Assembly: GCA_000442015.1 (NCBI GenBank)
Contig: KE560431.1
Span: 1 to 25,060 of the forward strand
Direction: 5' to 3'
DNA: 25,060 nt
From: Rozella allomycis CSF55
Lineage: Eukaryota; Rozellomycota
The notes under the pieces were generated by a model. It made no database searches. It saw only the letters and a list, made by a program, of their open reading frames with translations, and had not been told where the DNA came from. This document shows positions 1,465-25,060 of this stretch, piece after piece; within the stretch, counting starts at the first letter, position 1; the number at the start of each line of letters is the position of its first letter. A program made the position numbers and the translations under genes.

Positions 1465-1518
1465 AATGGCTTGCCCAGCCACGCTTCTAAACGATGGACT
1501 TTCTACATCTGTCTTACA

Positions 1519-2824
1519 ATGATGACAATTTTGCCACCAAAACAAGTGACACACAGGTAAAAATTACTATTTCTTGAAAAAATGGATCCAAGTAGAGTCG
1601 TCATGCATAGAGCGATTCCAAGAAAATAATTCTTTCACACTTAAGAGGCAAGATCACATCGATTTCATTCTTGAAAACTTTGTTAATCTAGAGTCATATA
1701 TGATCAGTCTTGATTCGAGTCAAACTTGGCTGTGTTATTGGATGTGTCATTCTCTTGCACTTTTAGATGCGCCAATACCTCACCAGGAAAAGTATTTGTT
1801 GATTATTTGTTTTAAAAGATTGATAAACACGATTAGATTGTTGCAAAGTGAACAAGGTGGATTCGCTGGAGCGCCTGGAATGATCCCACATCTTGCATCG
1901 TCTTATGCCGCTATTTTGGCTATAGCAACAATTGGGACACCTGAAGCGTACTCCATTGTTAACACAAAGAAACTATATGAATTTTTGGCAAGTGTGAAAC
2001 ATAAAGATGGCTTCTTTTACATGCAGCAAGGAGGTGAAGTCGATGTAAGGGGATGTTACTGCGCTATTGTTTGTGCATATTTAACAGGCATAATGGACGA
2101 TAAACTGACTGAAAATGTAGCGGAATATATTCTAAAGTAGTTTATCATATTTTGAAATAAAAGATGCCAGACATATGAAGGTGGGTTCGGAGGTATTCCC
2201 GATGCTGAAGCGCATGGCGGATACACGTTTTGTGCAGTTGCTGCGCTCAAGATTTTGGGAAGAGTTAAAGATTGCAATATGGACGCTCTTATTGTAAGAA
2301 ATAATGAAATTCTTGACGTAGCGATTTGTTTCATCGAAACAAATGAAATTGGAAGGAGGATTTCAGGGAAGATGCAATAAATTAGTCGATGGGTGTTATT
2401 CATTTTGGCAAGCAGCGATTTTCCCGATAATTGAGAGTGAATTACCGATTCCAGAGTTTCACGCATACAATCAAGGTAGAATATAGTTTTGCAATTTATA
2501 GAAATGCTTCAAAGGTATTTGCTTTGTTGTTGCCAACTTGATCTTGAGGATCACGGGGGAATGTTAGATAAGCCTGAAAAGTAATAGATTTTTTATCAAC
2601 TTAAATGGTATCCAGATTTGTATCATACATGCTATTGTCTCTCTGGTCTTTCTTTATCTCAAAGAATAATTCGTCTGTCGAAAGAAAATCCATTCACTCT
2701 TAGGTGCATGGAAATGTCAGTTATTCTTGGAGACGAATCAAACGAATTAAAAACTACTCATCCCGTATTTAACATTGTATCAACCAAGGTTGATTCCATT
2801 TTGGATTATTTTAAAGTCAAATAA
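1519..2824 (+). CDS. Protein farnesyltransferase beta subunit (six exons)
   Basis: Catalytic subunit of CAAX farnesyltransferase; with the alpha subunit it attaches farnesyl to the cysteine of Ras-type proteins. Exons: 1519-1556, 1585-2136, 2164-2293, 2322-2475, 2502-2580, 2608-2824; they sum to 390 codons (389 aa), close to the core of family members. Visible: WLCYW near residue 61, GEVDVRG with the substrate-binding Arg near 168, EAHGGYTFC near 212, GRCNKLVDGCYSFW with the Asp and Cys zinc ligands (about 263 and 265), and DLYHTCYCLSGLS with the His ligand (about 324). AHGGYTF and DGCYSFW favour farnesyl- over geranylgeranyltransferase. Introns 2-4 are GT-AG (27, 28, 26 nt). Introns 1 and 5 (28 and 27 nt) are GT-TG when placed by frame and homology. 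The ATG at 1519 gives an N-terminus ending QVTHRIQVESS, which matches the family. A BSD gene follows 48 bp downstream. Confidence 0.93.
1557..1584 (+). other. Farnesyltransferase intron 1, GT-TG
   Basis: The donor is a good CAG/GTAAAA. The first downstream AG (1591-1592, a 36-nt intron) puts exon 2 out of frame with every open upstream frame. Ending at AAATG (1584) gives a 28-nt intron and joins the MMTILPP exon in frame to the QVESS segment. Confidence 0.55.
2581..2607 (+). other. Farnesyltransferase intron 5, GT-TG
   Basis: The donor is AA/GTAATAG. The only usable AG (2614-2615, 35 nt) breaks the frame and removes the conserved Asp before LYHTCYC. Ending at AAATG (2607) gives a 27-nt intron and the product KPEKYPDLYHTCYC, with the same spacing as the human KPGKSRDFYHTCYC. 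Confidence 0.65.
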
Positions 2825-3667: not shown

Positions 3668-4872
3668 TTATTCTGTAACTTTTTCTGAATCATCCAAATT
3701 TTCAATTTCGGATTTTCCAGAATCTGAAGATTTTGCATTTTCATCAATTTGTTTAAGTTCTTCTTTTGCCTTTTTTCTTTCTTGCTGGAGAGCTCGACAC
3801 AATTTTTCTAATTTTTGATTTTGGGTTTTCAAATTATCAATTGACGATTGCATTTTCGTTCTCTTTGATTATTAAAGAGAGAATAAAATACCTCGTCAAT
3901 CATTTCTAGAATATTTTTATTAAAAGTTTCAATCTTTCTGGACTGGTTCTGTTTTTCAATTTCCAGGGATCTATTCTTTTTATTCATCTGTAATTAAAAA
4001 TAAAATTTATTTTACATTATCGATTTCTTTCTTTAAAGTATCAAACATTACGTTGCTTTTATCCAACATTACTTCAACGCTCTTAAACTTTTCTGCATAC
4101 GTGCAAATTTGAGCTTTCATTTCTTTTTCTATAAATGAATATTCAGTGACTTGTCTCGTTAAAGTTTCTACTTGAGAATTCATTTCTGAATTATTCTGAA
4201 TTTGTTGCTGCAATTTAGCTTCAGCTAATTTCAATTCCAAATCTTTCTTTTTCATCAAAGTATTAAAATGTTTCTCACGAAGATCATATTGCTCAACATA
4301 ATTATTATATTGTTCTTTCATCTTCTCATACATCCCCTGTCTCTTTTTTTGCTCCTCTGAATCCTTTTCAATCTTTTCTTTAATATCAGAAATAGCACTT
4401 TCAAATTTTGATGACAATTCATCTCTCTTCTTTTCAGCCTCTTTTGATGCCTTCAATGCTTCTTCTCTCACACTCTTATTGTCCTTTTGTAGTTCTCTAC
4501 ACAAATTCTCTAGTTTTTTAGATTTCGCACTATCTTGAATCACTTTAAATAAATAACTATAAAAGTTATTACATTGTTCGCGTTCCTTTATCAATAAATC
4601 ACATTTATTCTTTAAAGTGATGTAACTACTCTCAAGATGCTTCAAATCTTTAATCAGAAATTAAATATAAATTATTTAATTACCAAATAATGATCTTGCA
4701 TAGAGTTGGAAGCGGTTAAAATAGCCTTTCCAATTATTTCACCTAAAATGTACATAAAGAGTCTTTTATTACGAACTGGGATATCTTCAACAGAATATGA
4801 CATTTCTAACTGCTCGAGTCTCGATTTTAATAACTCTATAGAGTCAGGTGATAATTTGCTATTTTGGAGCAT
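3668..4872 (-). CDS. Taxilin family coiled-coil protein (four exons)
   Basis: Taxilins are long coiled-coil proteins that bind syntaxins and act in vesicle traffic and centrosome-linked functions. Exons on the minus strand: 4872-4684, 4654-4016, 3987-3892, 3862-3668; all junctions are phase 0 and the total is 373 codons (372 aa). Two family hallmarks are visible: KLENLCRELQKDNK in exon 2 and QKLEKLCRALQQERKK in exon 4, plus the segment with SNVMFDTLKKEIDN. Heptad-like, Lys/Glu/Gln-rich sequence covers most of the protein. Introns 2 and 3 are GT-AG (28 and 29 nt). Intron 1 is placed at 4683-4655 (29 nt), ending in TG, which gives HYLIKDLKHLE in frame; the nearest AG (36 nt) shifts the frame. 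The tail is acidic. Confidence 0.88.
4655..4683 (-). other. Taxilin intron 1, GT-TG candidate
   Basis: Minus-strand donor TTG/GTAATT; the end at TTTCTG gives 29 nt and keeps phase 0. The alternative AG end at 4648 (36 nt) would need one extra exon base, for example a third G before the donor. Confidence 0.5.
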
Positions 4873-6779: not shown

Positions 6780-8252
6780 CTATTGAAGTTCCATCAGGAT
6801 TTCGTAGCATTCCCCTATGTCACTTAACCAAACTCCATCATGTCTAACTACATAGCACAAATCATTAACTTTGCCATCCGAATGCTTTTCCACAAAGGTA
6901 ACGGATACCCTCCACTTATTGTCTTTAAATGATGCATTTCCAATTTTATCCATGGAAATATAATTCCATTTTTCTTTAATATACGAAAGTGACATCCATT
7001 GTTTAGTTTCTGTTCTGAAACCCACGTAATTACTATCACCTTTACCATCAACTTTGCATAGAGCCTTTAAGCCACCCGTGTCTTTTATGTCTTTTATCGT
7101 GTATTCAGGATTATTTCCATTACATTGGTTACCGTATCCTGTCGCAAATTTTGAATATAAATATGTATCATCCCCTTCACAAAGTGCGAATTCATTTCCA
7201 CCATTTTTCAAGATGAGTTTAACTTTTTGGTCATTTTTTATTGCATCCTCCACTTTCATACAACGATTATTCACAAACATGTATTTTCCATTGCATTTAT
7301 CTTTTCCCACACAAGTTTTGTCAAGTAAAAAGTACCCTTAGCCTTCATCGCATTTTGTTGCCTTCCATCCTGTGGCCCCATCTTTTTCACGATCCAACCA
7401 TCCTGTGGGAAGACATTCAATCGCATTATCCTTCTCTTTTCTGTATTTACATTCTGGATCTGATTGGTCGTCCTTTTCAAGGGTTAAACATTTTTTCCCA
7501 TCTGAACTTGGAAGTCTTTTACTACCATTCTCCTTGCAAACATCACAAGTGTTTCCATCAGGCTTGTATTTCTCACAATCAGCAATTGGTGCTACACAAA
7601 TTTTCTTATTCTCAGTGGTAAGAAATGGTCCATTATTCTTATCCGTGCACTCTTTACACGAGAGTTTGTCGCCAGCATCATAGACTTTGCATCCATTCAC
7701 TTCAACACCACATGCGTATACCTTCTTATCAACATCCACCAACAGAGCCTTTTCATTGCCATTGCTACACTTGATACACTTTCCATTAGCGTCACGATTG
7801 CAGCCTGAATCCTCGGCTCTGGCTTGTGAACTACCACTGTTTGTCGTCGAGCTTCCGGTGTTAGATATCGGTGGCACTATGGATCCAAAATTATTAGACT
7901 GGGGAGTTACAATACCCGCTGGACTACCATTGCCGCTTGTCATCGAGTTTCCATTGTTATACGCTGATGGCACTGGTGTCCCAAAATTATTATATTGGGG
8001 ACTTACAATACCCACTGGGCCACCATTTCCCATGGAGCTTGCAAAGTTAGACACTGGTGGGACTGGGCCCCCAAAATATCCCGACTGAGGAGTTACAAAA
8101 CCTGCTTGACCTCCATTTCCATAACCACTACCAGTATTCTGGTATGACGGATTCGGGATTTGATTCTGTTGTGCATAGTTCGGAGGAGGGTAAGGTATTG
8201 GAGCGCTTTTCGCTATTCCTATTAGTACTGCAAGAGCTAAAACGTGTACCAT
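6780..8252 (-). pseudogene. Secreted Cys-rich protein B, interrupted by one in-frame TAA
   Basis: Signal peptide (MVHVLALAVLIGIAKSA), a Pro/Asn/Gly-rich linker with three imperfect repeats of about 31 residues, then Cys-pair modules (CIKC, CKEC, CDVC) as in gene A and a C-terminal domain ending EILMELQ. Reading is open from 8252 to a TAA at 7340-7338, then continues in the same frame to 6780. The stop sits in GAAGGC-TAA-GGGTAC. Removing the six bases GGCTAA would align CDEG-YFLL with CENG-YYLV of gene A. Upstream of the stop, B has also lost cysteines that A keeps (CLPTGWLD versus CLPKGCVT). Options: a recent loss-of-function insertion, two separate proteins, readthrough, or a sequence error. 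Its start codon and promoter look intact. Confidence 0.7.
7830..8114 (-). repeat. Three-copy protein repeat in the linker of gene B
   Basis: Three tandem units of about 93 nt encode variants of AGIVTPQSNNFGSIVPPISN followed by a Ser/Gly/Asn-rich spacer (residues about 47-141). The copies differ at many sites, so this is an old coding repeat and not an assembly error. Confidence 0.75.
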
Positions 8253-8378: not shown

Positions 8379-9879
8379 ATGAATGAACAAGAGCTTTTAG
8401 CTGATTTAGACGACCTAGATGATATTTCCGAAAATGAACTAGAAGATAATGCTATCTCTGTAGACGAAAACGAAGTAATACCCGAAAACCAACAATTAGC
8501 AGACTTCAAACTCATACATTCTTATCATCTTAGGCAACTTTTAGATGTAAATTATAAAACAAAGTAACAAAGGCAATTGAAAATGGTATTGAGATAGATG
8601 TTGGCTTTGGCCAAGAAGATCCTCAGTACAAACTCTTATTGCAAGCAAACAAAACAGCCGTTGATATTGATAATGAAATATATCTTATACATAAATTCAT
8701 AAGAGATATTTACTCTCAAAAGTTCCCTGAATTAGAAGGCTCTGTGCTCAATATGGTGGATTATATTAAAGCAGTACAGCTTATCAAAAATGAAACAGTA
8801 AAAAAAGAATATTAATCTTAAAAGGACGTATCCAAAGTTAATCTTCAGCAAGCATTGCCTGCTTCCACCGTGATGACTATATCTGTGGCTGCCTCTACCA
8901 CGACTGGGAAGCCATTAAATCAACATGATTTGGATAGTGTATTGAAGGCTTGTGATATGGCTTTAGAGTTGGAGAATATCAGATGGAAAATATTGGCGTT
9001 TGTTGAAAGCAAAATGACATTTCTGGCGCCAAATCTCTCAGCCTTATTGGGAACCTCAACGGCTGCTAAATTAATGGGAGTTGCTGGAGGATTACTGCCA
9101 CTCTCCAGGCTACCTGGAAATACAATTCAAGTATTAATCAATGCAAATATTAACTAGATTTTGGGTTCACAAAAGAAGCATTTGGCTGGATTTTCATCTG
9201 CTAGTGTCAAGCAACATGTGGGATTTATTTACGAAATGGAATTCATTAAACGCTTGCCCAAAGAATTAAAAATGAAGGCACAAAGAGTCATCGCTTACAA
9301 AGCTGCATTGGCCGCAAGAGTGGATGCCTGCAAGGAAGCACCTGATGGATCCGTTGGAAGAAATTTGAAGCAAGAAATTGATTCCAAGTTTGAGAAATTT
9401 CAAGAACCTCCGCCTTTAAAGAAAATCAAAGCTCTTCCAACGCCTACTGAAGGCCGCAAAAGTAAAAGAGGAGGAAAAAGAGTTCGCCGACAAAAGGAAA
9501 CATTTGCAGTGACTGAATTAAGAAAACTTCAAAACAGAGTTCAATTTGGAGTCCAAGAAGAAGAAATTATCGTAGGGGACACTGTTAAGGGATTAGGTCT
9601 CATTAAAGGAGCATCTGGTCGAGTTAGAACAGCAGCTACTAATGACAAACTTAGAGGTAAACGACTAATATCGATTAGATAGAAAAAATAAAAAAGACTC
9701 GTCAATTAAAACCATTGGCTGCTAATGAATCAGGCTTGGCGACGTCAATCGCCTTTACTCCTGTCCAGGGATTCGAATTGTACAACCCAGAAATTGCAAA
9801 GGCAGAAAAAGAGCAACAAAATTCTTCCAAATACTTTGGCAACATAACTTTTAAAAAGCCAACTTTTGTGCCGAAATAA
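8379..9879 (+). CDS. PRP31: Pre-mRNA splicing factor PRP31 (five exons)
   Basis: PRP31 binds the U4 snRNA kink-turn with the 15.5K protein and holds the U4/U6.U5 tri-snRNP together before spliceosome activation. Exons 8379-8546, 8573-8797, 8825-9130, 9158-9656 and 9683-9879 sum to 465 codons (464 aa; the human protein is about 499). Introns are GT-AG of 26, 27, 27 and 26 nt. The acidic start is MNEQELLADLDDLDD. The NOSIC/coiled region carries FPELEGSV and DYIKAVQLI. The Nop domain carries ACDMALEL, APNLSALLGTSTAAKLMG, GGLLPLSRLP, GFSSASVKQHVGFIY and LAARVDA. The C-terminal PRP31-specific part has QEPPPLKKIKALPTP, RGGKRVRR and SIAFTPVQGFELYNP. All hallmarks are intact. The TAA stop lies within AATAAA, 34 bp from the converging neighbour. 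Confidence 0.97.
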
Positions 9880-23342: not shown

Positions 23343-23738
23343 TTATTTTTTGGATTTTGAATAAGCACAGTAATTTGAGTTGGGAAGCGTAGCGCAATAA
23401 AGTGGAATGGGTACATACTTTGGTTTTGGCGTGTATTCATGATTTAATTCAACAGCTAAAATTCTCCCATTTGCTCCTGCAGGTAACTCTTCTGTGTTAT
23501 GTTCTCTAATCCTATCTTTGGGCCTTTGAATGGGCCTTCTCCAGACACTAGTGCTTTTCTCATGGTTGTTTATTGGAGGTAATGTTCGACCTAATGTGTG
23601 AAAAGCATCATTAACCCAGTTGGGACTTGATGAATCACTAGAGGGGCGTTTTGATGATACTAAATCAACTGGTGTGGATGTTATTGGGGTTGGATTCCGA
23701 CCTATGGCATCGTTTTGGACATCACGAATGTTCTCTTT
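23343..23738 (-). CDS. C-terminal part of a repeat protein related to the J-domain locus
   Basis: Open on the minus strand from the N at 23739 to TAA 23345-23343 (131 codons). It begins in the repeat unit found on the plus strand further right (DVQNDAIGRNPTPITSTPVDLVSS, SSDSSSPN), then leaves it where plus copies continue with MSGSIFSP and reads WVNDAFHTLGRTLPP instead, a unique basic tail with RRPIQRPKDRIREHN, ending NSNYCAYSKSKK. This looks like the end of the tandem-repeat gene. Its orientation conflicts with the plus-strand copies, so either there are two genes or a contig was flipped at the N. Confidence 0.6.
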   Translation of the reverse strand, partial: KENIRDVQNDAIGRNPTPITSTPVDLVSSKRPSSDSSSPNWVNDAFHTLGRTLPPINNHEKSTSVWRRPIQRPKDRIREHNTEELPAGANGRILAVELNHEYTPKPKYVPIPLYCATLPNSNYCAYSKSKK

Positions 23739-23739
23739 N

Positions 23740-24157
23740 CATCAAACTCAAAGAGGAAATCAAAGAGGACAAAATGTAGAGGGGAATATGTTAACATTCG
23801 AGCATCTCGATAATCCAAGCCCAACTCTTAAACCAAGTGGAAATACAGTGAATGTTCGCCCGGGTGTAGAGCCTGTGACAATTGCTGATACTAATTCAAA
23901 ATTAAATATTCATGATGTCACCAACGATGCCATAGTTCGGAATCCTACTCCAATAACATCCTNAATCAAAATCCAAATGGGCAAAATGTAAAGGGGGATA
24001 TGTTAACATACGAGCATCTCGATAATCCAAGCCCAACTCTTAAACCAAATGGAAATACAGTGAATGTTCGCCCGAGGGTCGAATCAGAGCAAAATATTGG
24101 TACTAATTCAAAAGGGAACATTCGTGATGTCCAAAACGATGCCATAGGTCGGAATTC
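23740..24157 (+). CDS. Fragments of the J-domain repeat protein (plus orientation)
   Basis: Two partial repeat units, joined at the N at 23963. Each encodes NML/NMLT..EHLDNPSPTLKP.GNTVNVRP, then an Asn/Ser-rich spacer and V.NDAI.RN. The frame changes at 23963 and the unit is cut short there (PITS then a new start), as expected for a collapsed or misjoined repeat. Not a complete gene in itself. Confidence 0.5.
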
Positions 24158-24286
24158 TTTTGAATTAGTAGCAATATTTCGCTCTGATTCGACCCTCGGA
24201 CGAACATTCACTGTATTTCCATTTGGTTTAAGAGTTGGACTTGGATTATCGAGATGCTCGTATGGTAACATATTCCCCTCTACATT
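23985..24286. repeat. Large inverted repeat inside the repeat locus
   Basis: Left arm about 23985-24113 and right arm about 24158-24286 are reverse complements with only scattered mismatches, separated by 44 nt. The arms are the EHLDNPSPTLKP coding unit in opposite orientation. It ends close to the N at 24290, so misassembly is likely, but the few differences between arms show that they come from distinct repeat copies. Confidence 0.75.
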
Positions 24287-24290
24287 TCGN

Positions 24291-25060
24291 TCCGGGTGTA
24301 GAGCCAGCGAGAATTGCTGATACTAATTCAAAAGGGAATATTAATCGTGATGTCGACAACGATGCCATAGTTCGGAATCCAACTCCACTAACATCCACAA
24401 CAGTTGATTTAGTATCATCCAATCACCCTTCTAGTGATTCATCAAGTCCCAACAGTATGAGTGGATCCATATTCAGTCCAGATCAAATTAACGATGTCAA
24501 GGTTGAAAAGGCATTTGAAGTTATTGGTATGAAGAAAACATTCAACATGGACGCGATAAAGAAACAATTTCGGAGAGCCATTCTAATGCAACATCCGGAT
24601 AAAAGTGGGAACACTGCAAAAGCTCAGGATATTATATCTGCATATCAAAATATTATAGACTACATATCTCGAAAAGACGCCCCAACTGCAACTAGTGATA
24701 CTACTGGTATTGGTCACCAGAATGCTAAGAATATTCAGAACAATCAAAGTCAAAGAGTACAAAATGTAGAGGGGAATATGCTACCGTATGAACATCTCGA
24801 TAATCCAATCCCAACCCTTAAACCAAATGGAAATGATCGTGCCAGTATCGAGCGTGAGAAGAATATTGATAATAATTCAAAAGGGAATATTCTTGATGTC
24901 ACCAACGATGCCATAGTTCGGAATCCTACTCCAATAACATCCTCACCAGTTGATTTAGTCTCGTCCAAAGGTCCTTCTATTAGTTCATCAAATCCCAACA
25001 GTATGAGTGGATCCATATTCAGTCCAAATCAAATTAACGATGTCAAGGTAGAAAAGGCAT
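24291..25060 (+). CDS. Tandem-repeat protein with J-like (DnaJ) domains, open to window end
   Basis: One frame is open from the N at 24290 to the window edge (256 codons), with no start or stop inside. Order: Ser/Thr/Asn-rich linker (DLVSSNHPSSDSSSPN), MSGSIFSPDQINDVKVEKAF, then a J-like domain (about 24493-24670): AFEVIGMKK..FNMDAIKKQFRRAI, the loop MQHPDKSGN with the HPD signature, and the last helix AQDIISAYQNII. Next come a Gln/Asn-rich linker, EHLDNPIPTLKP, another linker, and a second MSGSIFSPNQINDVKVEKA starting at 25003. The two MSGSIFSP sites are exactly 546 nt (182 codons) apart. HPD implies a possible Hsp70 partner; function otherwise unknown. Confidence 0.75.

Follow-up and report, generated by a model that had tools for sequence, protein, structure and literature searches.

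Few marks of an intron's end are as strongly conserved as the AG dinucleotide. A described departure from it is found in mammals: in the accessible text of Szafranski et al. (2007, PMC2374985), 36 human genes have a U2 intron with a TG 3' splice site (0.02% overall), and these sites are always alternative and have an AG within 28 nt. The same text mentions, with results not shown, that chicken CNBP has a viable GG where the human gene has TG. TG and GG are also named among the commoner alternative acceptors of mouse cells in the available part of a 2026 review (PMC13149111). At the other end of the intron, GA-AG introns are known from Eurytemora affinis and Oikopleura dioica, and in one species they make up 3.2% of the sites supported by RNA, as given in the accessible portion of Frey and Pucker (2020, PMC7072748); the main text of that survey, which covers 130 fungal genomes, contains neither 'GT-TG' nor 'Rozella'. 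For Rozella, 2.5 introns per kb are given in the available text of a fungal intron paper (PMC8476143), where its acceptors are not discussed, and the word 'intron' is absent from the main text of the Paramicrosporidium genome paper (PMC5701793). No TG acceptors in Rozella were reported in the titles and abstract openings searched.

As far as the available texts allow the comparison, the introns described here resemble the mammalian TG sites in joining a GT donor to a TG acceptor in U2-type introns, and differ from them in amounting to about 3% of the settled introns, in being 27–29 nt long and, in the best cases, in having no AG choice that keeps the conserved protein. With the GA-AG lineages they share the use of one non-canonical dinucleotide at a few per cent, whereas the affected site is the 5' one there and the 3' one in Rozella.

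The window (the whole stretch of 25,060 nt that was analysed) carries at 1494–2824 the gene for farnesyltransferase (FTase) beta, which aligns with the solved chain 1jcq_B at 352.7 bits and whose product gives 358.5 bits with Pfam Prenyltrans. The gene is single-copy in the genome searched (the parasitic fungus Rozella allomycis CSF55, 9.97 Mb, 213 contigs), its sole distant relative being located on contig C17. The spliced product comprises 397 amino acids and is encoded as follows.

1494–1556, plus strand: exon 1, MDFLHLSYNDDNFATKTSDTQ, aligned to homologues.
1557–1585, plus strand: intron 1, 29 nt, GTAAAA...AAATGG, GT donor and GG end, placed by the profile scan peak at 29 nt.
1586–1791, plus strand: exon 2, beginning with IQVESS, from homologue alignment.
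1792–1818, plus strand: probable intron 2, 27 nt, GT-AG, a multiple of three and stop-free, suggested by homologues (the scan prefers 21 nt).
2137–2163, plus strand: intron 3, 27 nt, GT-AG, from the profile scan.
2294–2321, plus strand: intron 4, 28 nt, GT-AG, from the profile scan.
2476–2501, plus strand: intron 5, 26 nt, GT-AG, from the profile scan.
2581–2607, plus strand: intron 6, 27 nt, GTAATAG...TTAAATG, TG acceptor, placed by the profile scan peak at 27 nt.
2608–2824, plus strand: last exon, from YPDLYHTCYCLSGLS with the zinc-ligand His to the stop, from homologues, its end derived from the 397-residue product.

The splicing of this gene was evaluated with a profile built from 18 homologues, Rozella left out, and for each intron all lengths of 15–55 nt were tried in turn; an earlier scan of the two odd introns covered 18–59 nt. 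The last intron reads GTAATAG...TTAAATG/GTATCC, and its 27-nt form scores best of all lengths (524.0 bits), with the same maximum in the earlier scan. The best AG choice is the 35-nt form, which reaches 440.1 bits, 84 below the TG form, because the frame breaks. The initial annotation had proposed both the 27-nt TG-ending intron and the disruption of the frame at the next AG, and the scan upholds it on both points.

The first intron proved odd as well, in a way other than that proposed. The scan peaks at 29 nt (1557–1585, end TGG), and owing to the adjacent Gs the intron can be written in two ways that yield the same product, either as GT...GG (1557–1585) or as GG...ATG (1556–1584). The initial annotation had described 28 nt with a TG end (1557–1584), for which the frame MMTILPPKQVTH would be needed; it scores 503.9 bits against 519.9 for 29 nt, so that the irregular end stands and the length and frame do not. 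The frame MDFLHLSYNDDNFATKTSDTQ/IQVESS, which begins with the ATG at 1494, gives gapless alignments with Batrachochytrium DDEGFATETSDAQLQVED and with solved FTase beta 1jcq, and the spacing at the junction DDNFATKTSDTQ/IQVE is the same as in Batrachochytrium DDEGFATETSDAQ/LQVE. It had further been stated that the next AG breaks the frame; this is true at 36 nt, but an in-frame AG at 41 nt (1597) had been overlooked, and its use lowers the score to 511.2 from 524.0 bits. An N is present at 1464, about 90 nt upstream of this intron.

The in-frame AG at 1597 is used by the public protein P0001, which lacks IQVE as well as the 19 residues YPDLYHTCYCLSGLSLSQR holding the zinc-ligand His. Read on the DNA, these gaps match introns that end, at each of the two odd sites, in an AG farther downstream. 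Against the FTase beta profile P0001 gives 446.3 bits and the restored frame 519.9.

The scan of introns 3, 4 and 5 peaks exactly at their AG, so these three of the introns behind the six exons counted originally are each recovered. A suspected frame slip in this gene turned out to be the 28-nt intron at 2294–2321. The count of six itself probably has to be raised to seven, since a 27-nt GT-AG intron at 1792–1818, absent from both the first reading and P0001, is likely. This region forms an insertion of about seven residues relative to the homologues, and removing 27 nt gains 4.1 bits (524.0 against 519.9 unspliced). The profile favours a 21-nt removal (531.2 bits), so intron 2 is less certain than the others and the scan is not infallible.

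Other features of the window were noted by eye or by the gene finder. A PRP31-like gene with four GT-AG introns of 26–27 nt was seen by eye at 8379–9879. At about 7338–7340 on the minus strand, the gene of a cysteine-rich protein contains an in-frame stop that the gene finder reads through. The region 23400–25060, near a DnaJ-like stretch, shows by eye repeated blocks, single Ns and apparent inverted copies, and may be a place where scaffolds were joined within a repeat.

Non-AG acceptors were also sought ab initio in 225 kb, composed of 200 kb of another contig and the window. An AG-only gene finder placed 214 introns there, mostly of 26–29 nt and with GTAA donors; with any acceptor allowed, the number of its non-AG calls varied with the penalty, between 0 and 12. 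When one extra dinucleotide at a time was admitted in these 225 kb, TG was not singled out (score gains AA 56.0, TG 32.3, TA 30.7, TT 26.9), so that this test lends the idea of TG acceptors no support. Its TG calls miss the FTase beta intron, so it has little power, and as it gave TG no excess over AA a homology approach was taken. Two of the non-AG calls were rejected, one in a MAP4K-like kinase, where an AG lies at 34 nt, and one in D-2-hydroxyglutarate dehydrogenase, where a 27-nt AG intron occurs together with a frame slip; others fall in unconserved genes. Within AG introns, TG is depleted between nt 25 and the AG (18/699 against 323/5393, odds ratio 0.41), as would be expected if TG could be read in that stretch, but a TTGA-like motif farther upstream confounds the comparison.

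GSK3 and proteasome beta-5, both single-copy, were scanned with profiles from 40 homologues each over lengths of 18–55 nt. All seven ordinary introns of the two genes peak exactly at their AG, and the other three peak at TTG ends of 29, 27 and 27 nt, where the best AG choice is 17 to 337 bits worse. Among all AG introns that served as scan controls, one in 11 (FTase beta intron 2) peaks off its AG, at 21 nt. The TG introns found by homology in these and further genes are the following.

GSK3 (L064, C152:18700–19750), first TG intron: 29 nt, ending CCATTG, from the profile scan and the alignment with solved GSK3-beta.
GSK3 (L064), second TG intron: 27 nt, ending CAATTG, from the profile scan and the alignment with solved GSK3-beta.
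Proteasome beta-5 (L078, C160:22100–22950): 27 nt, ending AAATTG, from the profile scan and the solved-structure alignment.
CaMK (L050, C72:3950–4800): 28 nt, ending AATATG, from alignment; Pfam kinase 225.6 bits with TG against 215.4.
AMPK-like kinase (L056): 27 nt, ending AAAGATG; Pfam kinase 200.8 bits with TG against 194.1 with AG.
CDK9/12-like kinase (L057, C164:62750–63700): 28 nt, ending GATGCTG, from alignment; Pfam kinase 212.5 bits, the top of three lengths.
ATG4, candidate outside the survey: 26 nt, ending AAAGTG; 229 against 218 bits.
Window 4655–4683, minus strand: taxilin, possible TG intron of 29 nt, called by the gene finder; Pfam Taxilin 213.3 bits with TG against 211.2 with AG, a weak difference.

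The alignment with the GSK3-beta structure is gapless through KKVLQDKRFK/NRELQIMR and LCDFGS/AK, and that with the proteasome beta-5 structure through CR/LYELRNKERIS, where the aphelid protein P0254 reads RRCRLYELRN. The public proteasome beta-5 model P0241 lacks LYELR, and no Rozella GSK3 protein was present among the best 120 of 7679 matches. The CaMK and CDK alignments are also gapless through the TG junctions. In the AMPK-like kinase the AG located 3 nt upstream of the TG would yield HRDDLK instead of HRDLK, and in the CDK9/12-like kinase a 25-nt form ending GATG gives 207.1 bits against 212.5 for 28 nt. The ATG4 alignment has small gaps beside the junction. In the taxilin gene (gene-finder span 3668–4872) the AG alternative is 44 nt long (4640–4683).

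The first six of these introns belong to a survey of 60 conserved-gene loci elsewhere in the genome, picked by the author: 34 kinase loci, mostly multi-exon (of 138 matches), 8 CCT (of 33), 10 proteasome (of 23), 7 AAA (of 19) and 1 U2AF1. Junctions were judged by eye from family motifs and sequences, and the six TG cases are backed by tools as well. The settled introns number 213, of which 207 end in AG and 6 in TG; the TG rate is thus 2.8% (95% interval 1.0–6.0%), to be read with the bias that the TG introns were identified, and all others curated, by one and the same observer, and that unsettled junctions were excluded. These exclusions are L042 at HRDI/KGGN, the last junctions of L065, L047 and L053, the first of L040 and L031, the later introns of L054, the C-terminus of L034, and L074:208, a proteasome position dropped as an intron and regarded as coding. 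By family, TG introns account for 5/126 in kinases, 1/30 in the proteasome, 0/31 in CCT, 0/23 in AAA and 0/3 in U2AF1. A supposed 25-nt non-AG intron in kinase L037 was rejected, being a normal 29-nt GTTAAG...TAG intron.

The settled AG introns are 25–32 nt long, 184 of the 207 fall within 26–29 nt, only one is shorter than 26 nt, and all except three have a GTA donor. All six TG introns have a GTAA donor and 27–29 nt and resemble them: they share with the ordinary GT-AG minimal introns of R. allomycis, taken as U2-type, the GTA donor and the range of 25–32 nt, and differ in the last two bases, which are not AG. If non-AG ends were random, about 5% of them would be TG, so that six TG out of six would arise by chance with p ~2e-8. 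The DNA ends, lengths, reading frames and restored conserved proteins are direct observations. The original suggestion that some minimal introns of this genome take TG acceptors is borne out in independent genes (6/213, of which GSK3 has two and proteasome beta-5 one), and homology evidence points to such acceptors in several conserved genes, at a few per cent.

Several of the surveyed loci show further peculiarities. In the CCT genes L028 (contig C35, 998–1057) and L031 (C69, 611–669), two full-size GT-AG introns abut directly (30+30 and 30+29 nt), leaving no exon in between, and homology requires the removal of both; each pair resembles minimal introns joined at a recursive splice site of zero length. 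In kinase L041 (C112, oriented locus 423–476) two 26-nt GT-AG introns surround a 2-nt exon GG, which is required for YRDLK. Kinase L042 (C112, oriented locus about 360–420) has its HRDI/KGGN motif split by about 54 nt at a break without a GT donor. Inside this break lies ATATCCTTT, which we take to be a U12-type donor; the frame is incompatible with a simple U12 intron. A sub-threshold U12 snRNA match (36.4 bits, gathering threshold 53) occurs at C191:364863–364995 and a second U2AF1-like match, which could be ZRSR2, at C191:599776–600220; Rozella may keep a minor spliceosome. Assembly flaws were met in two CCT genes, namely a one-base frame slip in L030 (about 300) and a single N with duplicated flanks in L034 (about 865).

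It is possible to ask which machinery would produce such ends. Splicing at the TG junctions in vivo, and its manner, we infer from the sequences described above. All survey TG introns start with GTAA, and on this ground U12-type introns, whose donor motif is [AG]TATCCTTT, were rejected. Stwintrons, in which an internal intron interrupts a splice site of the outer one (available text of PMC5639578), were looked for at the TG sites by eye only, and no second intron was seen. The best reading is that in about 3% (1–6%) of introns the ordinary spliceosome would take UG for the 3' splice site. That the genome has U2-type introns of nearly fixed size (mostly 26–29 nt) in which UG, and at least once apparently GG, would be accepted in a few per cent at the usual distance from donor and branch region, we consider highly probable. 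Loss of U2AF35 as the cause was rejected: the gene is present with both zinc fingers, which are like the human ones, so AG recognition was probably not lost. Such recognition by U2AF35 may have been kept for most introns, and the short fixed length would place the intron end for the second step, the exact dinucleotide being tolerated. L056 and ATG4 both have an AG at nt 24 that is skipped for a TG, at 27 and 26 respectively, which a minimum distance for the intron end would predict; together with the single AG intron under 26 nt among 207, this favours exon ligation that would be set by distance and tolerate UG. To the fuller proposal of a relaxed 3' splice-site code, with UG and sometimes GG as constitutive acceptors in about 1 in 35 introns as length and not AG sets exon ligation, we give about even chances.

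The TG could instead serve only as an alternative of the mammalian kind, a nearby AG defining the intron in step one and the TG being chosen in step two. This reading, which is compatible with TG use and opposes only the length-set mechanism and constitutive use, appears possible but rather doubtful. It would agree with the AG seen 7–17 nt downstream in 9 of 10 non-AG candidates (the survey six, FTase beta introns 1 and 6, ATG4 and taxilin) and with the constant presence of an AG within 28 nt in mammals (accessible text of PMC2374985). However, 132 of the 207 AG introns likewise have the next AG within 17 nt, so nine of ten is not far from the background; in the tenth candidate, L056, the next AG lies 33 nt downstream, though another lies 3 nt upstream; and in GSK3, beta-5 and FTase beta the nearby AG would remove conserved residues or disrupt the frame.

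We regard it as quite unlikely that sequencing or assembly errors made TG or GG out of AG. One-base frame slips do occur in a CCT gene and in D-2-hydroxyglutarate dehydrogenase, an N with duplicated flanks in another CCT gene, and the N at 1464 lies near FTase beta intron 1; on the other hand, the gene finder called 5–6 frame slips or readthroughs in 225 kb at a strict penalty (27 at a laxer one), and errors would be spread over dinucleotides, six equal single-base changes of AG giving six TG of six with p = 2e-5. Three single-copy genes would each require errors exactly at their acceptors. A missing A at both FTase beta sites is unlikely, because adding one would leave the first site out of the conserved frame, and because errors would not produce TG in all six survey cases. 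We find it very improbable, too, that the affected introns are mis-spliced or retained in genes that decay or encode shorter proteins. The public models P0001 and P0241 imply as much by their other ends at these places, but the pieces lost belong to conserved segments: FTase beta would forfeit its zinc-ligand His, proteasome beta-5 LYELR and GSK3 NRE. The affected genes are single-copy and otherwise intact in the parts inspected.

For the Rozella genome, which belongs to an early-branching fungal lineage, AG-only annotation would harm the models of conserved genes, including their active-site segments, and where the root of Fungi and Microsporidia is studied, such damaged models can pass for lost or diverged genes. 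If a eukaryote routinely ligates exons at UG in minimal introns, one could ask directly whether it is the dinucleotide or the distance that the second splicing step requires.
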